This document shows positions 1-40,354 of a DNA stretch of 40,354 nucleotides, in pieces. The notes under the pieces were generated by a model that did not search any database, was not told where the DNA came from, and saw only the letters and a program-made list of their open reading frames with translations. The stretch is from a virus, in IMG/VR virus record IMGVR_UViG_3300036832_000801, positions 1 to 40,354 of that record; one strand, given 5' to 3'. Position numbers and translations under genes: made by a program. The stretch's first letter is position 1, and every line of letters begins with the position of its first letter.

Positions 1-693
1 CTGCCGGTTCACCGTGAAGCCGTGCGCGGCGAGCATGATCACGATCCGCTGGTCAAGTTCGTCGTCGTCGTCCGGGTTGTTCGAATTACTCGAAATCCGG
101 TCGTCGTCCGGGTCGCGCGCGCGCCCACGTGCGGGCGCGCGCGAGTCGACAACCCCGGCCGACGACTCTTTTGACTCTGACTCTGACTCTGTCTCTGACT
201 TAGCATTGCCCGTCGCACTGCGACCTGCATTGCCCGTCGCATTGCGGCCCGTAGTGCGACCCGCAGTGCCCGACGCACTGCCATGCGCATGCGGATCGCT
301 ACGCGGACCGCTGGAGTTCCAGCGCTGCCGCGCCGCGCTCCGCGCCTGGTCCGCGCGCTTTTCCGCGTCGGCGCGGGTGCCGTTCCGCTTGACGTACGCG
401 GGAACAGTCCAGCCCGTACCGTCTGATGACACGCGTGGCCGGATCAGCTTTTCGTCTTGAAGAAGGTCGGCAAGACGCCGTGCGGTTCTGATGCCGACTG
501 GGTATGCAAGTGCTCCTAGTTGCTCAGTTGGCACGAATCCGTCGGTCAGTTCCTCGCGGCAGTAGCAGGCCATCATGAGGTACAGATAGGCCGCTGCCAT
601 CCCCTCGCTACCGGACGCCTGCACGAGGCGCCGCACCTTCGGGTCGCGGCCGAAGCCGACGTAGAGCGGGATGTAGATTTCGCCGAATGGCAT
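1..693 (-). CDS. Replication initiator, DnaD/lambda-O-like, N-terminal part (gene continues across the window edge)
   Basis: This is the N-terminal 231 codons of a 404-residue protein; the rest is at 39676-40354, because the window ends overlap by 157 bases. ATG at 691-693 follows GAGGTGACGT and overlaps the stop of the upstream nuclease gene. The first ~110 residues (starting MPFGEIYIPLYVGFGRDP) look like the winged-helix domain of phage replisome organisers: a short strand, helices, then a turn around RTARRLADLLQDEKLI. Residues ~134-165 are a low-complexity Gly/Asn/Arg/Thr linker encoded by 12-bp DNA repeats, followed by a Ser/Glu-rich stretch. Proteins of this design (lambda O, DnaD-like) bind origin iterons and recruit the helicase or its loader. 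The fold assignment is by eye; the initiator role is inferred from domain order and early-operon position. Confidence 0.75.
   Translation of the reverse strand, partial: MPFGEIYIPLYVGFGRDPKVRRLVQASGSEGMAAAYLYLMMACYCREELTDGFVPTEQLGALAYPVGIRTARRLADLLQDEKLIRPRVSSDGTGWTVPAYVKRNGTRADAEKRADQARSAARQRWNSSGPRSDPHAHGSASGTAGRTTGRNATGNAGRSATGNAKSETESESESKESSAGVVDSRAPARGRARDPDDDRISSNSNNPDDDDELDQRIVIMLAAHGFTVNRQ
164..201. repeat. GACTCT hexamer tract, purine-rich on the minus strand
   Basis: The hexamer GACTCT recurs (around 164, 173, 179 and 185), followed by the related GTCTCT and GACTTA. The tract is far less GC-rich than its surroundings and strongly purine-biased on the minus strand. It encodes a Ser/Glu run of the initiator. 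It directly abuts the 12-bp repeats at 203-294, the arrangement seen in lambda ori, where iterons border an asymmetric purine-rich, easily melted segment. Confidence 0.7.
203..294. repeat. 12-bp tandem iterons inside the initiator gene: candidate replication origin
   Basis: Seven consecutive 12-bp units start at 203, 215, 227, 239, 251, 263 and 275, with a partial eighth at 287. They follow the pattern G-C-A-(T/C/G)-T-G-C plus five variable bases; units 1 and 3 are identical. They lie in the linker region of the initiator gene and border a purine-biased, lower-GC tract. Phage initiators of the lambda O type bind iterons located within their own gene. That this is the origin is an inference; the repeat itself is directly visible. 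Confidence 0.65.
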
Positions 694-1034
694 CACGTCA
701 CCTCGGTAGGTTGTGGGGCGTACCCGGCTGCGGTGAGCAGCGGCATGACCTGGCGCAAGGGAAGCACCACCAGGGCATCGCCGACCGCCGTCTCGCCGCA
801 GCCGGGCGGCAGGTAGACGACCAGCGCGATCTCGCCGTCACCCGCGTACTTGGCGGCCTGGGCGAGCCACTTGTGCGACCACCGCATCTCGGTCTTGACC
901 TCGATGGCGGTGCCCGGCGTGCCGAGGATGTCGCGCCCCGGCCGCGAGTTCGGGGTCTTCTCCGCGTCAGGCCACCAGGGCCGAAGCCACGCGGCAACCC
1001 AGGCGGGCGCGGCGTTGCCCTTGTCCCGGCTCAC
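693..1034 (-). CDS. Holliday-junction-resolvase-like PD-(D/E)XK nuclease
   Basis: 113 residues. GTG at 1032-1034 overlaps the stop of the preceding gene (GTGA), and its own stop overlaps the initiator start. The core segment reads GRDILGTPGTAIEVKTEMRW, giving the Asp, Glu-Val-Lys arrangement of the PD-(D/E)XK nuclease fold as in archaeal Hjc-like and many phage resolvases, followed by a helix (KWLAQAAKYA) and a strand (EIALVVYLPP). Such small nucleases resolve branched DNA before packaging or during recombination, in keeping with the RecT/RecB-like genes of the same operon. The exact substrate (junction or other branched DNA) cannot be told from sequence. Confidence 0.75.
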   Translation of the reverse strand: MSRDKGNAAPAWVAAWLRPWWPDAEKTPNSRPGRDILGTPGTAIEVKTEMRWSHKWLAQAAKYAGDGEIALVVYLPPGCGETAVGDALVVLPLRQVMPLLTAAGYAPQPTEVT

Positions 1035-2918: not shown

Positions 2919-3295
2919 TGGGGACCGCCCCCGTCCTGTTCCGGGTCGTCGCCGCCGTCGTCAAGGGGCAGCTCGGCGGGCATGTCGCGGAACGCCTCCT
3001 CGATCTCGTCTTCCAGGTCGAGCGGCAGCGTGGTCTGCCCCAGGCGGTGCTCCAGCGCGCGGCGGATCAGCCGCTCGGCCGCGGCGAGGTCCTCGGGCAG
3101 CACCACCTCGGCGCGGCGGATGCGGATGGTGGCCGCCTCCTCGCCGTTATCCTGGTCGATCGTGACGCGGCGGCAGTCCACGATCGCGATGACCGCCCGG
3201 TACTTCTTGGGGTCGGCGATCAGCTCGGCGGCGATGGTGTAGAGGCCGTTCTCGTCGCCCTTCGGGAGAACGGCGTTGGTCTTCACGGTGGGCAT
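2915..3295 (-). CDS. Conserved-type early protein next to the recombination genes, function unknown
   Basis: 126 residues. ATG at 3293-3295 is preceded by GAGGAG with about 8 bases spacing; an upstream in-frame extension is possible but would be Arg-rich and unlike a coding N-terminus. The body is a compact alpha/beta unit: GLYTIAAELIADPKKYRAVI, then IVDCRRVTID and IRIRRAEVVLPEDL, followed by helices and a very acidic tail (LPLDDGGDDPEQDGGG). Proteins of this general look often sit beside RecT in actinophages, without an assigned role. Its stop overlaps the next start. Confidence 0.8.
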   Translation of the reverse strand: MPTVKTNAVLPKGDENGLYTIAAELIADPKKYRAVIAIVDCRRVTIDQDNGEEAATIRIRRAEVVLPEDLAAAERLIRRALEHRLGQTTLPLDLEDEIEEAFRDMPAELPLDDGGDDPEQDGGGPQ

Positions 3296-6558: not shown

Positions 6559-6624
6559 CGTTCTCGGGCCTTTACCGACCGTCCGGTGGTCGTTCTCGGA
6601 TCTTTAACGACCATCCGGCGGTCG
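6559..6624. repeat. Two tandem ~32-bp repeats with internal CGACC/GGTCG inverted repeats
   Basis: A 34-base block starting at 6559 is repeated at 6591 with four or five differences. Both share CGTTCTCGG, then CTTTA, then CGACC, CCGG and GGTCG. Each copy can form a small hairpin with CGACC/GGTCG arms. They lie between the likely promoter and the XRE gene, so they are either operators or structured parts of the mRNA leader. Confidence 0.6.
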
Positions 6625-13860: not shown

Positions 13861-15392
13861 GCCGCCGACCATTGCGCCGTGACCTGCCCGGCCCCGGTGG
13901 AGTACAGCGTCCAGGTGGCCGAGCCCGTCGCGGGCACCATCAGCGGCGCCGATCCGGGCAGCACGTAGGACGCGCGCGACACGCCGCCCGGCGCCCACGC
14001 GTTCAGCGTCTCGGAATCGACGGTGACCTGCGCCTGGCCGGGCACCGCTGCCAGGTAGATCGTGTTCCCGGTCGCATTGTCGACCAGCCGCGAGGTGCCC
14101 AGGTCGCCCAGGTAGTTCAGCAGGACCGGCGCGGGCACGTTGCCCGCGTTCTCCAGCACGAGGGTGTTGGCCAGCACCTTGTCCCCGTACAGGCGCTTGT
14201 ACCCGCGCACGTTGTTCGCCACCGGCCAGACCGGGGCGGTCAGCAGGCCGGTGCGCAGCCCGACCGAGTACAGGTTGCCCGTGCCGAGCAGCTCGTAAGG
14301 CGTCCAGACGCCGCCTGGCGGAGTGAGGAACGCCAGCCCGCTCGGGCCGGACAGGCTGGCGAGCACGACCGCGGTCTGCTGCGGCAGCCACAGCGACGCG
14401 TTCGGGATGTCAGAGTGCCCGCTAGAGGTCGCGGCGGCCATGAGCTGCCCGACGACGCCCTTGAAGCCGGTCACCTGCGCGGTGCCGACCCACCCGACAT
14501 CGGTGGTGACGGTCACCTTGTCCGCCGCCGCCTGCGTCATCGCCTTCGCGTTCGGGCACAGCCAGATGTGATGCTGCCGCCCGGCCGCCGTGCTCACGTA
14601 CGCCTCGGTGTAGACGTTGCCCTGGGTGTCGGTGACCGTCAGCACCTTGACCGGCCGGTCGGCGACGAGCAGCAGCAGCGCCACGTCGCCGTTGTCGACC
14701 AGCTTGGCGCCGACGTAGGAACTCAGGACCAGGGACGTGGCGCTGCCGCCGTTGTAGGTATAGCAGAACGCGTTGTGCGACACGGCGCCGCCGGTCGGCA
14801 CGAGCCCCAGCATGGTCATCACCCAGTCGTAGGGGGCGTTACCGTTGGCGGGGACCGTCACCCCGACCCGCCAGTCGCCCGCCTGGGCATAGCGCCACCC
14901 GGTGCCCACGCTGACCGGGGCCAGGTTCCCGTCATAGGAGGTGCCGTACTTGCGCGGGTCGGCGGCGGTCAGGGTGAGCTGCCAGGCGAACAGCCCCGGC
15001 CCGCTGAACGTGTGCTTGAACCCATCGCTGTCGCACCGCACGCTCGCGGTCATGTAGCGGCCCGCCGCGTCGGGGATCATCAGGTCAGCGGGGACCAGCC
15101 TGGCGGCGCGGGTGACGAGCTGGTCGCGGAACAGCGCCAGGGCGGGCGGCGGGCCGACCGCCGAGCCGTTGATCGTCACGGTGCGCGCCGCCGCCGTTTT
15201 CGGCCCGGTCAGCGACCCGTCGGACAGCACGAGCGCCGTGTCGTGCCCGTCGTAGTCCGGTGAGTCATACCAGCCGGTGACGTCTTCCACGACGCACAGC
15301 ACGCCGTTCGCGTCGTCGGCCAGCGGGTTGAGGGCGAGCCCGTCCCAGGTGACCGGCGGGCTTGCGGTCCACGTCCAGCCCGGATCGCTCAA
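13851..15392 (-). CDS. Distal tail protein (Dit-like)
   Basis: 513 residues from ATG at 15390-15392. The first ~170 residues match siphovirus distal tail proteins: WDGLALNPLADDANGVLCVV, then RTVTINGSAVG, helix LALFRDQLVTRAARLV and LTAADPRKYG. The last ~140 residues (GDKVLANTLVLENAGNVPAP onward) look like the C-terminal galectin-type half. Between them lies an insertion of roughly 200 residues with beta pattern and hydrophobic runs (VTTDVGWVGTAQVTGFKG), which may be an extra host-binding domain. The Dit hexamer joins the tail tube to the baseplate; the gene follows the tape measure gene as usual. Confidence 0.85.
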   Translation of the reverse strand: MSDPGWTWTASPPVTWDGLALNPLADDANGVLCVVEDVTGWYDSPDYDGHDTALVLSDGSLTGPKTAAARTVTINGSAVGPPPALALFRDQLVTRAARLVPADLMIPDAAGRYMTASVRCDSDGFKHTFSGPGLFAWQLTLTAADPRKYGTSYDGNLAPVSVGTGWRYAQAGDWRVGVTVPANGNAPYDWVMTMLGLVPTGGAVSHNAFCYTYNGGSATSLVLSSYVGAKLVDNGDVALLLLVADRPVKVLTVTDTQGNVYTEAYVSTAAGRQHHIWLCPNAKAMTQAAADKVTVTTDVGWVGTAQVTGFKGVVGQLMAAATSSGHSDIPNASLWLPQQTAVVLASLSGPSGLAFLTPPGGVWTPYELLGTGNLYSVGLRTGLLTAPVWPVANNVRGYKRLYGDKVLANTLVLENAGNVPAPVLLNYLGDLGTSRLVDNATGNTIYLAAVPGQAQVTVDSETLNAWAPGGVSRASYVLPGSAPLMVPATGSATWTLYSTGAGQVTAQWSAAWQ

Positions 15393-18300
15393 TGTGCACC
15401 TCCCTGTGCCGCCCAGCCGAGCGACCGCGAGACGGCGGCGGCGATCTCCGTCTCGGACTGGCTTGCGCGCGGGTACACGTTGACGGTCACCAGGCCGCGG
15501 CGAGCCCGCTCGGCCGCCTTGCGCAGCGCCGCCTCGTGCTCGGCCTCCACGATCGCCTTCTTGCGCGCCGCCTCATCGGCGAGCTGGTCGTGGATCGCCA
15601 CGGGGCCGGTCGAGACGAGCCCCGGCGTGACCCGCATGCCGCCGAGCCGGGGGTGGAGGCGCACCCGGACGTTGCCGAGCGTCGGCTTGACCGGCTTGCC
15701 CGCCGCCGCCGCGACGATCCCGGCGGTCTGCGCGGCGAGCCTACGCATTGCCTCGGCCGCGCTGATCCCGGTTTTCTCGAGGTTCTCCAGCGCGGTCGCC
15801 TGCGCCTTGGCCAGCGCGGCGGTGTTGGCCGCTTCCGCCTTGGCGAGGTTGGCGGTGTTGCCCGCCTTCGCCTTGGCGAGCGCGGAGTTATCGTTGATCT
15901 GCGCCTTGGCCAGCGCGTTGGCGTCGCTGGTGTTCGCCTTCGCGAGCCGGGCCGCGTTGGCGCTCTGCGCCTTGGTGAGCCGCTCGGCGTTGTCGATGCT
16001 CACCTTGCTCAGCGCGTTCTGCCGCGCCTTCGCGTTGGCGTACTGGTGGGCCTGCGCCTTGGCGAGTTCAGCGGCGTTGGTCTGCGCCGCCCGCTGGAGC
16101 GCGGCCGTGTTCTCCGTGCGGGTCTTGGCGTTGCGGGCGGCATTGTCAGACGCGGCGCGCTGGTCGCGCGCCGCGATCGACGCCTGCGCCTTGGCCAGCC
16201 GGGCGGTGTTCTCGGCCGCCGCCTTCGCCAGCCGCTCGGCGTTGTCGGCCACGGTCCGCGCCATCGCCGCCGTGTTGGTCGCGGCCACCTTCGCCGCGCG
16301 CGCCGCGATCGTCGCGGCCACCTTCGCCGCCGCCACGGCCGCCGTGTGCGCCGCCTTCGCCGCCCTGGCCGCCGCCCCGGTCGTCGCGCCGCCCGCTTTG
16401 GCCGCCGCCGCCGCCGCGATCGCCGCGAGCCGCACCGCCTCGCTGGCAGCCGTGTGCGCCTTGACGGTCTTCGCAGCGGCCTGCTTGGGCGCTGCGGTGA
16501 CGGCGGGCAGCGGCGACCCGGCCCACACGTTGCCGAGGTTCGCGCCCTTCGGCGCGCGGGCCGCCGCCATCCTGGCCAGCAGCCGCCGCAGGTACTCCAG
16601 CAGCTTGGCGGGCAGCACGCCCTCGGGCCCGGCCTCGCCGAGCAGGTAGCGGGTGCCGGACGCGCCGAGGCCCGCGACCGGCTCGCGGATCACGCCGCCG
16701 CTCGCCATCTTGACCGTGGCCGACTGCCGCAGCAGCTCGAAGATGTTGCGGGCCATCGCGGCCCGCGAGCTGCCCGCGCTGGTGCCCGACCCGCCGTAGA
16801 ACGGGTTGGACTGGCTAGAGCCCGCCGGGCGCTCGCCCATGTTCATGATGACGAGCGCGGCGCGGCCCGCGTCGGACTGGGCGTTGGCCAGGGACCAGTA
16901 GCGGCCCATGTTGCCCCGGAAGAACGAGTTGACGAGCGGCAGCTGCCGCGACAGGGACGCCGAGGGGTTGCCCGCGATGAACGCCGAGTTAGGCAGCGTG
17001 TTAGGCGGCGTCCAGCCGATCAGCCCGCGCCCGCCGCTGCCGTAGGACAGCGGGTCACCGAGCGACTCGCGCCAGACGTTACCCGCGACGCCGGCCGCGC
17101 CCGGCAGGCTCCAGCCGTGCCCGGCCATGTAGCGGGCGATCGTCTCCAGGTTCTGGCTGGACGAACCGGCGATGACCGGCACGAGGCCCTGGCTCTGGCT
17201 CAGCAGCCCGGCGAGGGCCTGGGCGAGCACGTCGGCGCTGCCCGCCACGCCGCCGCCGACTCCGCCGCCGCCAGGGAACCGGCGGATCGTGTAGACGCCC
17301 CGCGGTACGCTTTGCGCCCCGGTGCCGCTGGCGGTCGAGCGGGCCGCGAACCCGGTGCCCTTCCCGGTGACGATGCCCATATGGCCTGTGTTGATGTACA
17401 GGTCGCCCGGCATCATCGAGTCGTAGGGGACGGTGGTCAGCCCGCCGTAGCCGAGCCAGTTCGTGGTGACCGGCCCGTGCTGCGAGCTCGGCGCGCGGAA
17501 CCCGCCGGGGATCGGCAGGCCCGCCATCCCGGCGACCATGTTGACGAATGACGAGCAGTCGAACCCGGTGGCCGGGTTGGCGCCGCCGCCCCACACGTAC
17601 GGGTGCCCGCCGAACCCGAGCGCCCGCGAGACCAGGCCGCCGCCGCCGCCGAGGCCGGCTAGGCCCTTGGCGAAGTTCCACGCGCCCGACAGGCCGGAGC
17701 CCAGCCAGCCCATCGCGGCCTGGACGCCGGGGATCTTCTCCAGCACGCTCATTGCCTCCAGCGGCAGCGAGTTCGCCGCGACCACGCCCCGGACCACCAT
17801 CCAGCCCAGCGCCTTGGCCATCGAGCCGAACACGTGCTCGGCCGTCTCGACCGGGTTGGCGGACACCACGTCGTGCAGCATGCCCTTGAACATGTCGCCG
17901 ACGTTGCCCCACAGGCTCCCGCCGCCGCCGCCGCCTCCGGCCGCCGCCGCCCCGGCCGCGCCTCCGGCCGCCGCCGCCGCCACGGAGGCGCCTCCGCCGC
18001 CCTGCGGGCCGCCCGCGCGGCCCGTGGCGGCCCCGCCGCCGCCGCTCCCGCCGGGAATGTGGAACCAGCGCCGCACCGCCCCGATGATCGGGTCAACGAT
18101 CTGCGCCTTAACCCACGAGCTGATGTCTTTCCACGCCGTCTCGAAACCGGACTTCAGCACGCGGAGCACGTCCCCGCCAACGCCGGTGGCGGCGGACACG
18201 ATTGCGGCCCAGGCGCCGGAGAACAGCCCCTTGATCCAGTCCATCATCTTGGTGAGCGGCGTCTTGATGACGTTCCAGAAGCCGAGCAGCGGCGCGGCGA

Positions 18301-21300
18301 TCTTGCCCCACAGGGTCGCGGTGGTGTCGGACACCCAGCGCCACGCGGCGGCCAGCCTCGACTTGACCCAGTTGAACGCGGCGGTCAGCCAGCCGACCAC
18401 GTTGTGGTACCACGACAGGACGACCGCGCCGGTCGCGTTCCACGCCTGGGCGGTGTTGGACGTGACCCAGCTCCACACCGCCGAGGACGCGCCCTTGATC
18501 CAGTTCAGCGCGGTCTTTACCCAGCCGACCACGTTGTGATACCAGTGCGAGACGGGCGCTGCGATGTCATTCCACGCCCTGGCGGTCACGGCGGTGATCC
18601 AGTGCCAGGCGGCCGGGATCGCGGTCTTCAGCCAGTTCACCGAGGCGGTCACCGCGATGCGGATCAGGGTCCAGGCGGCGGTGATGATCAGCACGATCGG
18701 CGCCATGAAGAACTTGATCACCGCGACGAGCGCGCGGAACACCGCCATGACATACGGGCCGATCCAGCCCCAGAAGGTGCGGAAGATCCCCCGCCAGATC
18801 TCGAACGCGGCCAGGAAGATCGCCCGCACCAGGATCAGCCACACGTTGATCACGAAGCCGATGACGGCCAGCGCGAGCTTGATCACGGTCACGATCACGT
18901 TCCACACCGCGACCGAGGCGGCCCACACCGCGTTCCAGGCGGTCGTGACCGCGTGCACGATGGCCATCACGACCCCGGCGACCGCCTTGTAGGCGACGGT
19001 CAGCGCGCCCACCACGGCGTTCCAGATCCGCACCGTCTCGGCCTCGAACGGCCGCCAGATGCCGAACAGCACGCGCGCGATGGTGGTGAAGACCACTTTG
19101 GTGTGGTCGGTGAAGAACTTCAGCTTGATGAACACCCAGATCATCGCCTTGACCAGCCAGGTGAGCGGCCCGTCGATGAGCCAGATGAGCACGTCGCCGA
19201 TGATGCGGAACGCAACCTTGAGCACGGGCGCGAGGAACTTCGCCTCCATCGCCAGCTCCTTGAAGATCACGTGCGCCATGAGGGCGAGCAGCACGCCGAG
19301 CGGCTTGAGGAACTTGGTGAGGTGCTGCACCACGGGCGTGAGGCTGTCGCCGATGGTCTTGGCCAGGTTCCAGACGTAGGGCCACAGCTCCTTGAACCCG
19401 GCCACGATCTGGGTCAGCACGGGCCGCATGTCCTTCATGAACGCCTTGCCGAACTGGCTCAGCGAGGCCCGCAGCTTGGAGCTGGCCACGACGATCAGGA
19501 TGATCCCGTCGACCACCCAGGCGATCGGGTTGGTGATGTCGAGCATGAGCCCGGCCAGCTCGGTGAACGGCCCGAGCAGCCCGGTCACGACGTCGCCGAT
19601 CAGCGGGATGCCGGCCAGGAACTTGCTCGCCGTGATGGCGCTGAGCGCGACGCCCACCCCGAGGGCCGCCGCGCCGAACTTCTTCACCGCGTCGGTGGCG
19701 GTCTTCATGTTGGCGCCCGACAGCTTGTCCACCTGGTTGAGCAGCCAGTCGATCGCCTTGTTGACCGCGTTGATCGCGGGCGCCAGCGACACCATGAGCG
19801 CGTCGGCGAGCGGCTGCACCAGCGGCTCCAGCTTCCACAGCACCTTGCCGAGCTTGTTCGCCCACTGGATGGCCAGGCCGCCGCCCTTCTTGGAGATGAA
19901 CGGCTCCACCAGCGCCGAGCCGATGTCGCGCATGGCGGCCTGGATCGACTGCTTCGCGCCGGTCCACGTCGACTTCAGCCCGGCCGCCGCGCCCCGGTAG
20001 CGGATCTGCATCTGCTGGACCAGCACGGTCATCGCGGTCTGGGAGTTCAGCGTGTCTTTCGTGATCGCCTTGCGGACCTGGGCCGAGGTCATGTTCATGC
20101 CCTTGCCGATCAGGGTGGCGGCGTCGATGCCGCGTATGCCCATCTCGTTGAGGGTGCGGGCGGTGAACTTGCCCTGTGACTGGACCTTGGCCAGCACGTT
20201 GACCACGCCGAGGATGTCGTTGGCGTTCCCGCCGACCGCCGCCACGGCGTCCTGCACCGCGCTCAGCGTGGGGATGACGTTTTTGGCGCTGACCCCGAAG
20301 CCGAGCATCTGCTGGGTGGCGGTGATGAACGTCTGCCGGGGGAACGGGCTGGTCTTGGCGAACTTGGCCAGGTTCGTCATCATCTTGTCGGCGGCCTTCT
20401 GGCTGCCCAGGATGGTCTCGAACGCCTTCTGTGACTTCTGGTACAGCACGTTGTAGGCGACGCCCGCCTTGATGGCGTAGCCGAGGAACCCGCCGCCGAG
20501 CACTCCGGCGACCAGGCCGACCGCCTTGACCGCGTTGCCCGCCGTGCTGGCCACGTGCTTCATGCCGGTCTTGACCGACGCCCCGACCCTAGCCATGCCG
20601 GGCCGGATCATCTCGTCCATCGCGGCGGTGAACCGGGCGCCCGCCTCGCGGCCCAGGACCGACATGCGGGTCCTGAGCCCGGCATCCATCGCGTCGCCCG
20701 CCGTGATGGCGGCCATGCCTCCCGCCTTGGCCATGCCGGGGATCACCTCGGCCCGCCAGGTCCAGGCGGCGCCCGCGCCGCCGGCCTTCATGCTGGCGGC
20801 CAGGGCCGCGTTGAACGCCTCGCCCGTCCCCGCCCCGGCCTTCGCCCCGGCCGCCTCGGCACCCGCCGCCCAGCCGCCCAGGTCGGGGCCTGCGGTGATC
20901 GCTTTCATGCGCCGGCCCATCGTCAGGGCGAACGCCCGGCCCGCCGCTGCGCCCGCCTCGGCCCCGGCCGCCTCGGCCCCGGCGGTCATCGGTCCCGCCA
21001 TCGCGTCAGCGGCCGCCCTGCCGGCCGCTGCGACGGCCGGGACGAGCGTCTTGCTGAACGTCTCGCCCGCCGCCGCCGCTGCGGCCTTGGCCGACCTGGC
21101 GGCGGGAGCCTTCATCGACCCGAGCGCCTCCCCGGCCGCCGCCCCGGCCTTCGCGACGCCCTCCGTCATCGCCGCGCCGAACTCCGCCGCCGCGGCCGTC
21201 GCCGCCGCCCTGGCCGCGCTGCGCGACGCGGTGTCCGACCAGCCCGCCCGCAGCCCGTTCCTGATCCCGGCCGAGATCGTCTTCTCCAGCGCCAGCGACG

Positions 21301-21403
21301 CCGCCTCGCCCGCCGCGACCGCGTCCTTGCGGATCGCGGCGGTCATCGGCTCGGTGACCGCCCGGACGACGACCGACAGCCCCGCGTAGCTGTACTCAGC
21401 CAT
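15389..21403 (-). CDS. Tape measure protein with NlpC/P60 and tail-lysozyme domains
   Basis: 2004 residues. ATG at 21401-21403 overlaps the chaperone frameshift product. N-terminal ~270 residues are Ala/Gly-rich helix; ~280-480 is the typical tape-measure region (KAFETILGSQKAADKMMTNL, MLGFGVSAKNVIPTL). A hydrophobic, Trp-rich repeat region spans ~600-1090, including copies of WYHNVVGW. After a Gly-rich linker (~1115-1170) comes an NlpC/P60 peptidase: Cys in FDCSSFVN near 1284 and His in GHMGIV near 1341. Next is a phage tail lysozyme domain with the likely Glu in GNVWRES near 1445. Residues ~1715-1875 are an 11-residue repeat (LAKAxxxxxxx). It sets tail length and, through its wall-cutting domains, helps DNA cross the cell wall. 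Confidence 0.92.
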   Translation of the reverse strand: MAEYSYAGLSVVVRAVTEPMTAAIRKDAVAAGEAASLALEKTISAGIRNGLRAGWSDTASRSAARAAATAAAAEFGAAMTEGVAKAGAAAGEALGSMKAPAARSAKAAAAAAGETFSKTLVPAVAAAGRAAADAMAGPMTAGAEAAGAEAGAAAGRAFALTMGRRMKAITAGPDLGGWAAGAEAAGAKAGAGTGEAFNAALAASMKAGGAGAAWTWRAEVIPGMAKAGGMAAITAGDAMDAGLRTRMSVLGREAGARFTAAMDEMIRPGMARVGASVKTGMKHVASTAGNAVKAVGLVAGVLGGGFLGYAIKAGVAYNVLYQKSQKAFETILGSQKAADKMMTNLAKFAKTSPFPRQTFITATQQMLGFGVSAKNVIPTLSAVQDAVAAVGGNANDILGVVNVLAKVQSQGKFTARTLNEMGIRGIDAATLIGKGMNMTSAQVRKAITKDTLNSQTAMTVLVQQMQIRYRGAAAGLKSTWTGAKQSIQAAMRDIGSALVEPFISKKGGGLAIQWANKLGKVLWKLEPLVQPLADALMVSLAPAINAVNKAIDWLLNQVDKLSGANMKTATDAVKKFGAAALGVGVALSAITASKFLAGIPLIGDVVTGLLGPFTELAGLMLDITNPIAWVVDGIILIVVASSKLRASLSQFGKAFMKDMRPVLTQIVAGFKELWPYVWNLAKTIGDSLTPVVQHLTKFLKPLGVLLALMAHVIFKELAMEAKFLAPVLKVAFRIIGDVLIWLIDGPLTWLVKAMIWVFIKLKFFTDHTKVVFTTIARVLFGIWRPFEAETVRIWNAVVGALTVAYKAVAGVVMAIVHAVTTAWNAVWAASVAVWNVIVTVIKLALAVIGFVINVWLILVRAIFLAAFEIWRGIFRTFWGWIGPYVMAVFRALVAVIKFFMAPIVLIITAAWTLIRIAVTASVNWLKTAIPAAWHWITAVTARAWNDIAAPVSHWYHNVVGWVKTALNWIKGASSAVWSWVTSNTAQAWNATGAVVLSWYHNVVGWLTAAFNWVKSRLAAAWRWVSDTTATLWGKIAAPLLGFWNVIKTPLTKMMDWIKGLFSGAWAAIVSAATGVGGDVLRVLKSGFETAWKDISSWVKAQIVDPIIGAVRRWFHIPGGSGGGGAATGRAGGPQGGGGASVAAAAAGGAAGAAAAGGGGGGGSLWGNVGDMFKGMLHDVVSANPVETAEHVFGSMAKALGWMVVRGVVAANSLPLEAMSVLEKIPGVQAAMGWLGSGLSGAWNFAKGLAGLGGGGGLVSRALGFGGHPYVWGGGANPATGFDCSSFVNMVAGMAGLPIPGGFRAPSSQHGPVTTNWLGYGGLTTVPYDSMMPGDLYINTGHMGIVTGKGTGFAARSTASGTGAQSVPRGVYTIRRFPGGGGVGGGVAGSADVLAQALAGLLSQSQGLVPVIAGSSSQNLETIARYMAGHGWSLPGAAGVAGNVWRESLGDPLSYGSGGRGLIGWTPPNTLPNSAFIAGNPSASLSRQLPLVNSFFRGNMGRYWSLANAQSDAGRAALVIMNMGERPAGSSQSNPFYGGSGTSAGSSRAAMARNIFELLRQSATVKMASGGVIREPVAGLGASGTRYLLGEAGPEGVLPAKLLEYLRRLLARMAAARAPKGANLGNVWAGSPLPAVTAAPKQAAAKTVKAHTAASEAVRLAAIAAAAAAKAGGATTGAAARAAKAAHTAAVAAAKVAATIAARAAKVAATNTAAMARTVADNAERLAKAAAENTARLAKAQASIAARDQRAASDNAARNAKTRTENTAALQRAAQTNAAELAKAQAHQYANAKARQNALSKVSIDNAERLTKAQSANAARLAKANTSDANALAKAQINDNSALAKAKAGNTANLAKAEAANTAALAKAQATALENLEKTGISAAEAMRRLAAQTAGIVAAAAGKPVKPTLGNVRVRLHPRLGGMRVTPGLVSTGPVAIHDQLADEAARKKAIVEAEHEAALRKAAERARRGLVTVNVYPRASQSETEIAAAVSRSLGWAAQGGAH
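15780..16260 (-). repeat. Hendecad (11-residue) repeat region in the tape measure
   Basis: In the reading frame of the tape measure, LAKA-type motifs recur every 11 residues (LAKAN, LAKAQ, LAKAK, LAKAE, LAKAQ) with Asn/Thr/Ala between. The DNA shows matching 33-base periodicity of CCTTGGCC/CCTTCGCC words. Eleven-residue periodicity suggests a right-handed or nearly straight coiled coil. Confidence 0.75.
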
Positions 21404-31419: not shown

Positions 31420-31600
31420 AAGGAGGGCCACGGCCGAAAGGAGGGCCATGACCTGGGGGGGGTTGCAGCTCGGCAGCTCGGCAGCTTCGCAGCTCGGCAG
31501 CCCGGCGCCAAAGGAGGGCCAGGCCCGAAAGGAGGGCCACGAGCCTGGCAGCTTTGTAGCTCGGCAGCTTTGTAGCTCGGCAGCTCGGCAGCTCGCCAGC
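31420..31600. repeat. AAGGAGGGCCA and AGCTCGGC repeat array
   Basis: AAGGAGGGCCA occurs at 31420, 31438, 31511 and 31529, two pairs each with an 18-base period, 91 bases apart. Around them lie many copies of the eight-base unit GCTCGGCA and the variant GCAGCTTTGTAGCTCG (31462-31500 and 31545-31600). On the minus strand, the direction of the downstream genes, the first motif reads TGGCCCTCCTT. Confidence 0.8.
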
Positions 31601-31609
31601 AATCGGCAG

Positions 31610-31637
31610 CGCCCCGGCCGCGAGTGCGGCCGGGGCG
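31610..31637 (-). terminator. Hairpin with 12-bp perfect arms
   Basis: CGCCCCGGCCGC (31610-31621) pairs with GCGGCCGGGGCG (31626-31637) around GAGT. It lies in the leader upstream of the 68-residue gene, so it would act as an attenuator or end transcription arriving from the right. Confidence 0.65.
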
Positions 31638-33486: not shown

Positions 33487-33944
33487 TAGGACAGCAGGCG
33501 CTCGGCGCTGCCCGGCGCGGTCGAGTGCTCCACGCGGAGCGGCTGGCGGGCGGCCGGGGTCAGGCCGAACTCGCGCGCCCACTGGCGCACCTCGGCCCCG
33601 GCGTCGCGGGCCATGCCGACCGCCGGGTTCTTCCGCACGATGCCGTCGCGGTCCTTCAGCATCAGCCCGGCCCGGCTGACGATCTCGGTCGCCACGCGGA
33701 ACCGGGCGACCGCCTCGCAGTAGCACGCCAGCGCCGTGGCGTCGGCCGCCTTGACGGTGCCCATCACGATCAGGTCGGGCACCAGCCGCGCCCATTCCTC
33801 GGCGGCGGAGGCGCTCAGCCAGTCCGGGGGCTCGGGCAGCAGTTCCCGCGGCTTGGGCTCCTGGCGGTTGATCCGCGACGGCCGGGACTCGCCGCGCAGC
33901 AGCCGCAGGTTGGTCGGCACCGGCTGGGGGCCTCTACGCCCCAT
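33486..33944 (-). CDS. terS: Terminase small subunit, P27 family
   Basis: 152 residues from ATG at 33942-33944, overlapping the end of the gene upstream by 11 bases. MGRRGPQPVPTNLRLLRGES is the family signature (P.P..L.lL.G), followed by the EPKP...LPEPPDWLSASAAEEW segment and the helical part VPDLIVMGTVKAADATALAC. P27-type small terminases recognise the packaging site and activate TerL. In most phages TerL follows directly; here the accessory island comes between. Confidence 0.88.
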   Translation of the reverse strand: MGRRGPQPVPTNLRLLRGESRPSRINRQEPKPRELLPEPPDWLSASAAEEWARLVPDLIVMGTVKAADATALACYCEAVARFRVATEIVSRAGLMLKDRDGIVRKNPAVGMARDAGAEVRQWAREFGLTPAARQPLRVEHSTAPGSAERLLS

Positions 33945-34950
33945 TCGGCGCCGCCTTGTGCTTGTTGGCGTGCTCGGCGACGCGGCGGGGCAGGTCGGCG
34001 TGCACGGCGGCGGCGGTGGCCCGCGCGACGTCAAGGGTCTTGTCGCGGGCCGCGCTGAACAGCACCCGGTCGAGCACGACGAGCGGCGTGCGGATCGCGT
34101 CGGGGCTCATCGCGTGGAACACGCGCGGGTCGCCGCGCCCGTTGGACCGCGCCCGGCGCACCACCAGCCTGGCCGCCTCCGGGTGCATCCGCTGGAGGCC
34201 GACGCTGCGCTTGTCGTCATACCAGCGGCGCAGCCCGCCGTCGTAGCGGGTGTTGTCCTTCTGGTAGCGCAGCGGCAGGATCAGCCCGGCGGTGACCGGC
34301 GCGGCGCTGGCGCCGTACTGGATCGCCTGGATGATGTCGTCTTCGCTCGGCCCGTGCCACGGCATCCGGCGCGGGCCGGTCCGCTCGAGGAAAAGCGAGT
34401 ACGGGAAGCCGCGCCGGGCGAAGACCATGCGGGCGCCGCCGGGGTTGACCGACGCCAGGTTGGCGCCGCACATCGCCGCGTTGGTCGACAGGGCCACGGC
34501 GGCGATGATGTCGGCGTACATCCCCAGGCCGCCCAGCTCGTGCATGGTGCGGGCCGCGACCCCGTAGGCGGTGGACACGTAGAACTGGACGATGTTGTCG
34601 TCCAGCTGGAGCACGGCCCAGTAGCCGCGCTGCTCGGCGAGCCGGGCGGCCCATTCCCGGCCGGGGAACGCGCCGAGGAACCCGCCCTCCTCGTACGGCT
34701 TGACGTCGGTCCAGTGCTCGCGCGCCCAGGTCTCGGCCCAGGCGCGCGGGTAGGCGGCGATCTCGTGCCCGTCGTCCTCGTACGCCCCCGCCTCGTCGTC
34801 GCGCACGACCCATACCGGGTCGGCGGTGACGCCGTGCAGGGCCGAGAGCCACCGGGCGGTGCGCCGCTCGTCCAGGCTCGGCCGGCCGCCGGAGACGACG
34901 CACGGCAGGATGCCCGCCAGGGCCTCAGTGCTTGTGACCGTAGCGGACAT
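33934..34950 (-). CDS. Candidate TET-associated/GREB-type glycosyltransferase
   Basis: 338 residues from ATG at 34948-34950, overlapping the ParB-like gene by 26 bases. N-terminal strand LPCVVSGGRPSLDERRTARW (GR at ~22-23), then DPVWVVRDDEAGAYE, and at 110-120 YWAVLQLDDNI with an Asp-Asp-Asn triplet, like the metal-binding acid motif of GT-A type glycosyltransferases. This order resembles the TAGT/GREB proteins described in phages that glycosylate hydroxymethylated bases, where ParB-like proteins are common neighbours. The C-terminal 120 residues are basic helices. I saw no TET/JBP hydroxylase in the window, so the sugar acceptor is unknown. Assignment is by pattern only. Confidence 0.6.
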   Translation of the reverse strand: MSATVTSTEALAGILPCVVSGGRPSLDERRTARWLSALHGVTADPVWVVRDDEAGAYEDDGHEIAAYPRAWAETWAREHWTDVKPYEEGGFLGAFPGREWAARLAEQRGYWAVLQLDDNIVQFYVSTAYGVAARTMHELGGLGMYADIIAAVALSTNAAMCGANLASVNPGGARMVFARRGFPYSLFLERTGPRRMPWHGPSEDDIIQAIQYGASAAPVTAGLILPLRYQKDNTRYDGGLRRWYDDKRSVGLQRMHPEAARLVVRRARSNGRGDPRVFHAMSPDAIRTPLVVLDRVLFSAARDKTLDVARATAAAVHADLPRRVAEHANKHKAAPNGA

Positions 34951-35518
34951 TGAGCACCCCCGGAATCTTCGCCAGCACGACCGGCCCGGCCTCCTCGGCC
35001 TCCCGGCGGCTGGCGAACACCAGCGTCAGGGTGAACCCGGCGCCCAGCAGCGCGGCCGTCTCCGGGTCGTCATCCAGCGGCTCTCCTTCGGGCGGGCTGG
35101 CCGCGTAGCCGTCGATGATCTCCTGCCAGTCGGCCAGGTCCAGCACCCCCTCGAACTCGGCGCCGATGCCGTCCAGCTCGGCCGCTAGCAGCGCGTAGTC
35201 CCACATCGTGTAATCGTGCGTGCGGTTGTCCGCGATGCGGAACGCCTTGACCTGCTCGGGCGTCAGGTTCGCCGCCACCACCACCGGCACCTCCGTTTCG
35301 GACAGCTGCCGGGCCGCCTGCCAGCGCACGTGCCCGGCGATGATCACCAGGTCCGGGTCGGCGACGATGGGCTGCTGCCAGCCGAACGCCTTGATCGACT
35401 TGGCGGTCTGGTCGACGGCCTTGGCGTTGATCCGGCGCGCGTTCTTCGGGTACGGCCGTAGGTTCGCCAGCGGCATGACGGTGACCGGCCCGAGCGGCGT
35501 GACGGCGGGCGCGGTCAC
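34925..35518 (-). CDS. ParB-like (sulfiredoxin-fold) nuclease-domain protein
   Basis: 197 residues from GTG at 35516-35518, overlapping the HNH gene stop. MPLANLRPYPKNARRINAKA, IKAFGWQQPIVADPDLVIIA and GHVRWQAARQL (the GHxRxxA ParB box) are unmistakable. The C-terminal half (FRIADNRTHDYTMWDYALLA onward) is that of phage ParB-like proteins often fused to DNA methylases, but no methylase domain follows. It may act as a nicking nuclease or as a DNA-modification partner of the next gene. Confidence 0.88.
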   Translation of the reverse strand: MTAPAVTPLGPVTVMPLANLRPYPKNARRINAKAVDQTAKSIKAFGWQQPIVADPDLVIIAGHVRWQAARQLSETEVPVVVAANLTPEQVKAFRIADNRTHDYTMWDYALLAAELDGIGAEFEGVLDLADWQEIIDGYAASPPEGEPLDDDPETAALLGAGFTLTLVFASRREAEEAGPVVLAKIPGVLNVRYGHKH

Positions 35519-35829
35519 GGACGCGCCAGTGCCCGCGCTGCCGCGGCCTGCGCCAGGGTGACCGCCAGGTGGCAGTCCGGGCACAGCGACACCATCATGG
35601 CCTCGTCCTCGTTGCCCGGCTCGACATGGTGCACCTCGTTGGCCAGCGACCCGCAGCGGCGGCAGCGGTACCCGTCGCGGTGCAGCACGCGCGCTCTTGT
35701 CGCTGGCCAACCGGGCGGCATCCGGCGGCCGCGCGCCCCCTCGGCCCAGCGCGCGGGCGGGTGAACCGGGCAGCCCCGACGCGGGTACGGGCAGCCCGGA
35801 CGGCACGAGCTCGGCGCGCGGGTCGGCAT
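35515..35829 (-). CDS. HNH endonuclease
   Basis: 104 residues from ATG at 35827-35829. After a Pro/Arg/Cys-rich N-terminus comes the HNH unit: RARVLHRDGYRCRRCGSLAN, EVHHVEPG (catalytic His pair) and CPDCHLAV. Two CxxC pairs bind the structural zinc. HNH enzymes next to terminase genes are part of the packaging machinery in many cos phages, stimulating TerL cleavage. First gene of the terS operon. A homing-type role is less likely given its size and location. Confidence 0.9.
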   Translation of the reverse strand: MPTRAPSSCRPGCPYPRRGCPVHPPARWAEGARGRRMPPGWPATRARVLHRDGYRCRRCGSLANEVHHVEPGNEDEAMMVSLCPDCHLAVTLAQAAAARALARP

Positions 35830-35973
35830 GGCGCCAGTGTGCCCCGCGCCCGCCGCCAGCGGCAAGAGTGGGGCGCGGCTTGCCACCACGCGCGCCGCGC
35901 CCCGGACACGAAAGGGTTACCCGATTCGCACCACCAGTCGCAATCCTACTGGCCGCGGGGCGACACTGGGAGC
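35830..35973. other. Divergent intergenic region
   Basis: 144 bases between the leftward HNH gene and the rightward zinc-ribbon gene. It should hold promoters for both, but I see only weak candidates (TTACCC at about 35915 and CAATCCTACT at 35941 for the plus strand). Confidence 0.4.
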
Positions 35974-36333
35974 ATGCCACCAGCGCCGCCGTTCACCTGC
36001 CCCCGGTGCCAGCGCACCAGCCACCACCCCGACGACGCCGCTAACGGCTACTGCGGCAACTGCCACGCCTTCACCCGCGCCCAGCTCCGCATGCGGGTCT
36101 ACGTCGCCGGGAAGATCGCCGCCGAGGAATGGGTCGGCTCGCCCGAGCTGGTCGAGGAGATCGGCGTGCGCCACCAGGCGATCGCTGAGGACGCCGACCG
36201 GGCCGGCCGCGTGTGGCTAGTCGAGATCTGGGACCCCGACGCGCCCGAGGCAGCCGCCTGCCTCCGGTTCGGCACCGACCGGGCCGGAATGGTCGAGCCG
36301 AGCCAGGTCAAGGTCTGGCCGTGGATGCAGTGA
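35974..36333 (+). CDS. Zinc-ribbon protein
   Basis: 119 residues from ATG at 35974. GGGAG is only one base from the ATG, so the mRNA could be leaderless. The N-terminal TCPRCQRTSHHPDDAANGYC plus GNCHAFT is a classic two-knuckle zinc ribbon, seen in many actinobacterial and actinophage proteins. A second part (LRMRVYVAGKIAAEEWVGSP, then RVWLVEIWDPDAPEAAACL) is alpha/beta. First gene of a three-gene operon that runs against the rest of the late genes. Confidence 0.8.
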   Translation: MPPAPPFTCPRCQRTSHHPDDAANGYCGNCHAFTRAQLRMRVYVAGKIAAEEWVGSPELVEEIGVRHQAIAEDADRAGRVWLVEIWDPDAPEAAACLRFGTDRAGMVEPSQVKVWPWMQ

Positions 36334-39675: not shown

Positions 39676-40354
39676 TCAGAACGGCGGATCGTCGCCGTCT
39701 TCGGGCAGGTCAACGTCGGTGATGTCCCTCGGGTCTTCCTCGCCGTCGTCCGGAGCCTCGGCCACGCCCGCCGCCGCCAGCGCCTCACGGGCCTCGGCGA
39801 GCTGGGCCGCCGCGAGGGCCTCGCCGTGCAGCTGACGCGACGGCGGCGCCACCGGGACCGCCTCGGCGCGGGGCCGCTCGGCGAGCCGCTTGCGGGCCTC
39901 CGCCGCGCCACGGTGCGCCACGTCGGCCGCCACGTCGTCATCGAGCGTGTCCTGCACCGGCCGGGGCTGGTCCCACGGCGGCATCGGCGCGTCGCCGACG
40001 GACTCGTACCCGCCGGAGCCGCGCAGGCCCGCCGACCGGATCGCCGTCACCGGGTCCAGCCCGCGGGGCGGCATGCTCGGCGCCGACGGCGCCCACTTGC
40101 GCGCCCCGTCACGGGTCGCCAGCGCCGCCGAGACGTACCGGGCCGCGTTGTCGATCTTCCGCCCGCCGATGATGCGCAGCCGGACCCCTCGGGCCTGCTG
40201 CCGGTTCACCGTGAAGCCGTGCGCGGCGAGCATGATCACGATCCGCTGGTCAAGTTCGTCGTCGTCGTCCGGGTTGTTCGAATTACTCGAAATCCGGTCG
40301 TCGTCCGGGTCGCGCGCGCGCCCCCGGGCGGGCGCGCGCGCGTCGACAACCCCC
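39676..40354 (-). CDS. Replication initiator, C-terminal part (gene continues from window position 693)
   Basis: Continuation of the initiator whose N-terminus is at 1-693. This half reads ELDQRIVIMLAAHGFTVNRQ, then VRLRIIGGRKIDNAARYVSA as a small alpha/beta unit, then PRGLDPVTAIRSAGLRGSGG, a long Ala/Glu-rich helix (AAEARKRLAERPRAEAVPVA), and an acidic end (DDGEEDPRDITDVDLPEDGD). The full protein is 404 residues. C-terminal regions of such initiators contact the replicative helicase or its loader. The last 157 bases repeat window 1-157 with three changes. Confidence 0.75.
   Translation of the reverse strand, partial: GVVDARAPARGRARDPDDDRISSNSNNPDDDDELDQRIVIMLAAHGFTVNRQQARGVRLRIIGGRKIDNAARYVSAALATRDGARKWAPSAPSMPPRGLDPVTAIRSAGLRGSGGYESVGDAPMPPWDQPRPVQDTLDDDVAADVAHRGAAEARKRLAERPRAEAVPVAPPSRQLHGEALAAAQLAEAREALAAAGVAEAPDDGEEDPRDITDVDLPEDGDDPPF
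40198..40354. repeat. Terminal repeat of window positions 1-157
   Basis: 157 bases identical to 1-157 except three substitutions close to the right end (window 127, 130 and 144 of the first copy: A, T and A against C, G and C here). It shows the genome closes on itself. Read as codons of the initiator, two changes are silent third-position changes (Ala, Arg) and one is Ser to Ala. Confidence 0.9.

Follow-up and report, generated by a model that had tools for sequence, protein, structure and literature searches.

The window, that is, the whole stretch of 40,354 bp of viral DNA that was analysed, carries at its beginning the 5′ part of a replication initiator gene (positions 1–696, minus strand), which starts with a GTG codon at 696 and runs for 232 codons to the contig end. 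The 3′ part of the same gene is located at the opposite end (39676–40197, minus strand), where the encoded C-terminal region aligns with that of a relative from IMG/VR (L007). Bases 1–156 are repeated at 40198–40353 with 4 mismatches. This terminal repeat indicates that the contig is circular and that the gene is complete across the join, so that the ORF, which the sequence-only reading had running off the window, closes into a protein of 405 aa. Genes for RusA, RecT, and an exonuclease are found near the initiator gene, and a serine integrase is also encoded in the window.

The initiator is matched by PHROG_2447, annotated as “replication initiation protein”, with E = 3.4e-10 over residues 14–188, which comprise the winged helix-turn-helix (wHTH) domain and the linker (E = 4.7e-16 in the genome search). 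Its PHROG matches consist of this family and PHROG_1882, and none of the O-like PHROG families matched at the thresholds used. In Pfam, no family scored above its cut-off, Lin1244_N alone appearing at E = 0.078, below its cut-off; neither a DnaD-like or Phage_rep_org_N domain nor any of the Rep families of iteron plasmids (Rep_3 etc.) was found. The NCBIfam search gave nothing useful, fold and sequence searches against solved structures returned generic winged helices or nothing, and the family searches detected no homology to G38P of phage SPP1. AlphaFold2 modelling with five homologues (mean pLDDT 76) predicted a wHTH at residues 19–97, with the recognition helix at approximately residues 69–81 and the wing strands at 86–90 and 93–97. 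This N-terminal domain, encoded at 397–696 (minus strand), is presumed to bind the iterons.

Seven 12-bp iterons with the palindromic core GCANTGC are located at 203–286 on the minus strand (unit starts at 203, 215, 227, 239, 251, 263, and 275). They had been placed at the same coordinates from the sequence alone, and the partial unit listed at 287 is a degenerate continuation of the array containing no full iteron (GCATGCGGATCGCT, 287–300, minus strand). The core is exact in six of the seven units, the unit at 251 being GTAGTGC. GCANTGC is palindromic around a free central base. The 40,354 bp contain 13 copies of it, of which 6 lie here within 79 bp; no second copy of the array was found in the window. 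On the coding strand, the wHTH domain comes first, followed by the units (from 286 down to 203) and the hexamer tract (from 201 down to 164).

The GCANTGC core is constrained at the DNA level beyond the encoded peptide. When the peptide was held constant and the codons were drawn by the phage’s own usage, the resampled segment, which carries 5 cores, gave a mean of 0.08 cores, and none of the 20,000 resamplings reached the observed 5. The codons building the core are rare in the genome (for example, AAT 4.6%, AGT 1.4%, and ACT 2.8%). Lag-12 periodicity of the DNA against the codon-resampled peptide gave p = 0.037, so the 12-bp periodicity comes mostly from the four-residue peptide repeat and is by itself weak evidence for DNA constraint. 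A count of the most-repeated k-mer across the whole gene was dropped, because GC-rich words dominate it.

The tract beside the array (164–201, minus strand) reads TCAGAGACAGAGTCAGAGTCAGAGTCAAAAGAG on the coding strand. It is a strand-asymmetric hexamer repeat, presumed to act as a melting or single-strand recognition element, in which TRF called TGACTC at 172–200 with 4.8 copies and 91% matches. Its GC content is about 0.43–0.48 versus ~0.72 genome-wide, the 40-bp stretch that contains it (GC 0.425) is among the four with the lowest GC in the genome, and its purine bias is confined to the coding (minus) strand; GC content, TRF call, and strand bias all agree with the low-GC, purine-biased tract first noticed there. 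The codons of the tract are rare (TCA is 5% of Ser and ACA 1.7% of Thr codons), and their joint probability is 3e-9, compared with 5e-3 for the likeliest alternative seen. Directly 3′ of the tract lies a GC-rich palindrome (114–143). As it is strong only in the window and in the relative L010, it was rejected as a third conserved element and may at most be an optional feature. The two copies of the end repeat (114–143 and 40311–40342) differ only in or beside this palindrome, with a CACGTG versus a CCCGGG centre, and since the contig broke at a strong hairpin, the base sequence at this point is uncertain.

Four distinct relatives were obtained from IMG/VR (L007, L009, L010, and L012). In each of them, the same linker contains short recurring words and, after these, a AGACAGAG-type tract, and the words differ: GGCTCAAGCC in L009, GGCCATAGCC in L012, CGCATAGCG and GCAATGCG in L010, and GCAGTGC and GCGATCGC in L007. 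Within the 5.5-kb locus of L009, all motif matches (11/11) fall inside the initiator gene in three reading frames, which means that the DNA sequence is conserved even though the encoded residues differ; the frame of the motif also varies in L010 and L007. The wing of the wHTH holds a second iteron cluster in L009 (4280–4340), L010 (4255–4310), and L012 (2875–2960). In these three loci the same DNA words recur in wing and linker more than in codon-shuffled controls; in L007 the sharing was not beyond chance by the same controls. The L007 protein is ~50–60% identical, and its locus has no regular array, the 12-bp periodicity having been lost together with the peptide repeat. The expectation that relatives retain the DNA repeat despite changed amino acids is thus borne out by the reading frames of L009, L010, and L007 and by six phages with non-coding copies (see below), but not by the periodicity in L007. 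Scans of genome contigs found no relatives, further scans of viral contigs returned the same five loci, and tblastn of the window initiator and of that of L012 gave no match in cultured phages. The link to cultured phages was made through PHROG families and tract-bearing loci.

Viral contigs were scanned with the tract AGAGWCAGAGWCAGAGWCA, and the set with AGAGAC (AGAGWC) comprises at least 80 loci, from which 68 ORFs were picked by eye, roughly twelve ORFs that were short, duplicated, or clearly of another kind having been set aside. The fractions from this and the following scans are approximate, the loci being a sample and those listed a lower bound. At least 50 of the 68 tract-bearing ORFs match one replication-protein PHROG, and other common matches are primosomal, DnaD-like, or O-like. 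The tract is translated in the TE frame in most of them, in the RD frame in L040, L044, L055, and L060, and in the QS frame in L073. By a statistic that is blind to degenerate arrays, a 6-mer recurs at least three times in the 100 bp ahead of the tract in 56% of the loci, versus 4–13% at twelve other offsets. Iteron spacing at these loci peaks at 11 and 12 bp; the repeat length of the window, at first regarded as unusual, falls within the commonest spacing across the whole class. For the CCCGA and control scans, the ORFs were picked mechanically as the longest open frame over the tract. In the CCCGA scan, at least 40 of the 66 ORFs match PHROG_2447, the window’s own family, and repeats are located upstream of the tract in 61% of the loci and downstream in 14%. 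With its five-base period, the CCCGA tract is not codon-derived. With a control hexamer of identical composition, about one ORF out of 67 was replicative, the rest being structural and unnamed proteins, with no upstream bias of repeats (29% upstream and 40% downstream).

Twenty-five annotated initiator regions of cultured phages were inspected, and in most cases iterons and tract are located inside the ORF; in several phages the automatic 6-mer count was not above control, and the layout there was recognised partly by eye. For instance, AGAGAC tracts follow CGCTAAGCGACC iterons in Typha and AATCGCATG iterons in Rousseau, GTGAC/GTCAC is followed by CCCGA in Murp and Malibo, and TCGCGA by an 8-base tract in Brujita, all within the ORF. 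Lymara, KBurrousTX, DrYang, TripleJ, MargaretKali, and Doucette have short initiators (134–176 aa), with iterons and tract non-coding after the stop codon. As three of the six are members of a single genus, four lineages are represented. In Lymara, GCGATCACAAAC repeats precede (AACCAG/C)n, and in Doucette, CTCGCTAT repeats precede AGAGATAGAGGTAGAGG. The iteron of the IMG locus L055 (GCGATCGCAAAC) is nearly identical to that of Lymara, yet it lies inside the ORF. A DnaB-type helicase gene adjoins the initiator in several cultured members. Streptomyces phage SF3, whose initiator is distantly related, has neither iterons nor tract. The repA gene of Mycobacteriophage Miko, which with a further 171 bp is a proven replicon, was considered as a positive control and discarded, as it encodes another type of RepA and lacks the layout. 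For mycobacteriophage RepA-like initiators, an origin upstream of or within repA was suggested and no repeats were found (PMC7157519). That RepA family differs, and many other actinophage initiators show the iteron-plus-tract layout.

Proven origins inside initiator genes exist in lambda and Stx phages (gene O, with 4 or 6 iterons; PMC7466680) and in SPP1 (oriL in gene 38; PMC6316719). Similarly to lambda and Stx, the iterons of the window lie within the initiator ORF between the parts for the DNA-binding domain and the C-terminal region, and a compositionally distinct tract of low GC follows directly 3′ on the coding strand, although across the wider class this tract is partly not AT-rich. 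The window differs from Stx in the iterons (7 × 12 bp vs. ~20 bp, where two extra iterons add 13 residues; PMC7466680) and in the tract, which is a tandem hexamer. Lambda-type iterons measure ~18–20 bp, unlike the 12-bp units here, and the initiator, unlike O, matches neither Pfam nor O-like PHROG families at the thresholds used. The lambda-type designation given by the sequence-only reading therefore holds for the layout, which the relatives and the cultured phages retain, and not for the protein. The oriL of SPP1 likewise places direct repeats bound by the initiator (G38P) and a DNA-unwinding element within the initiator gene itself (PMC6316719); SPP1 has a second, distant origin (oriR), whereas a search of the window gave no second copy of the array. 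In actinophages with PHROG_2447 or “RepA-like replication initiator” proteins (Typha, ThulaThula, Catfish, CheeseTouch, Murp, Malibo, and Lymara), the same gene region holds iterons of ~11–12 bp followed by a tandem tract, but both sequences vary by phage and are non-coding where the initiator is short; no mapped origin for these initiators was found in the open-access literature. Iteron plasmids (P1, R6K, and pSC101) share the replicon-specific arrays of initiator sites near the region to be opened (PMC5043065). On the other hand, their iterons usually lie outside the rep gene and are bound by Rep monomers, and the window protein has no Pfam Rep match.

The array could represent an autoregulatory or copy-control site, where the initiator represses its own gene or titrates itself and replication starts elsewhere. 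In iteron plasmids, initiator binding sites can serve in both replication and autoregulation or copy control, and the layout alone fits both readings. However, the sites are found hundreds of bases into the gene or downstream of its 3′ end, and not at a promoter, next to a conserved tandem tract with no obvious role in repression, and the same order in lambda and SPP1 marks origins; autoregulation as the sole role is improbable. Even less can be said for low complexity at the protein level, that is, a flexible Gly/Ala/Asn linker and a Ser/Glu tail expanded by slippage, with no function in the DNA. It predicts the lag-12 periodicity nearly as observed, but it is largely refuted by the rare codons forming GCANTGC, the codon choice in the tract, the three frames of the motif in L009, the translation of one DNA tract as TE, RD, or QS, the tracts that repeat every 5, 7, or 8 bases, and the non-coding copies, and we consider it very improbable.

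The parS sites of mycobacteriophages are arrays of short direct repeats (PMC7157519), and the window encodes a ParB-like protein, as would suit a partition (parS-like) or packaging site placed by chance inside the initiator gene. Across phages, however, the layout follows initiator genes and not par or terminase genes, the window has a serine integrase, and the ParB-like protein adjoins a DNA glycosyltransferase, which suggests DNA modification; a site of this kind is highly unlikely here.

The segment 164–286 is very probably an intragenic iteron origin, lambda-like in working, in the linker-coding part of the initiator gene. By analogy with lambda, an initiator on iterons should strain the DNA, after which the neighbouring tract would open and the helicase load (PMC5043065; for lambda, PMC7466680), and for the window we infer iteron binding, tract opening, helicase loading, and origin activity along these lines. 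The winged-helix domain would bind the GCANTGC iterons, which follow one another at intervals of roughly one helical turn; the protein–DNA complex would bend and strain the duplex, and the adjacent tract would open. The exposed strand would then receive a DnaB-type helicase, assumed to be the host’s because the window genes examined included no recognisable one, and might also be read by sequence via the C-terminal part of the initiator or a partner. The asymmetric melting region first proposed beside the iterons agrees with the low GC here, but related initiators carry GC-rich (CCCGA)n in the same place, so the tract must do more than melt easily. DnaD of B. subtilis has been shown to read one strand of its DRE (PMC10201434), and it is a reasonable idea that the initiator or a loader reads one strand of the tract in a like manner. 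GC skew, a check put forward along with the origin, gave no support for this location (block-shuffle p = 0.10, detrended minimum at 3,014).

On balance, we lean towards a wider interpretation, namely a two-part origin type common to phages of many hosts. It would consist of 11–12-bp iterons, replaced from phage to phage, and a tandem tract built from a small set of favoured units (AGAGAC, CCCGA, AACCAG, and others) and recognised as a one-strand sequence, not just for ease of melting, at a fixed place after the wHTH, coding or not, locatable genome-wide by the tract alone and joined by a second cluster in the wing in L009, L010, and L012. The open-access literature searched yielded work on lambda and SPP1 and plasmid reviews but no report of the tract, whose novelty is accordingly provisional, and no binding, footprint, or replication experiments on a phage of exactly this layout.

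To our knowledge, the origins of most phages are unmapped. The two-part signature selects replication initiators from viral contigs by a DNA string of 19–20 bases, with a clean control. With it, the position of the origin can be tested in numerous phages, among them cultured ones that grow on laboratory hosts. The coding and non-coding versions form a natural set of one origin, and a tract that is not necessarily AT-rich bears on how initiators open DNA.

Other features of the window were also recorded. A TET-associated glycosyltransferase (TAGT, E = 1e-13) is located beside the ParB-like protein at 33934–35980; the pair suggests DNA hypermodification, and the ORFs scanned near it had no Pfam match. 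Non-coding direct repeats at 31420–31610 comprise GCAGCTCG units as well as a duplicated block of 91 bp with GGAGGGCCACG, possibly a regulatory, partition, or second-origin site. At 6559–6624, two 32-bp tandem copies of CGTTCTCGGACCTTTAACGACCATCCGGCGGT lie close to the serine integrase gene. The tape measure protein, encoded at 15389–21403, contains phage tail lysozyme and NlpC/P60 domains.
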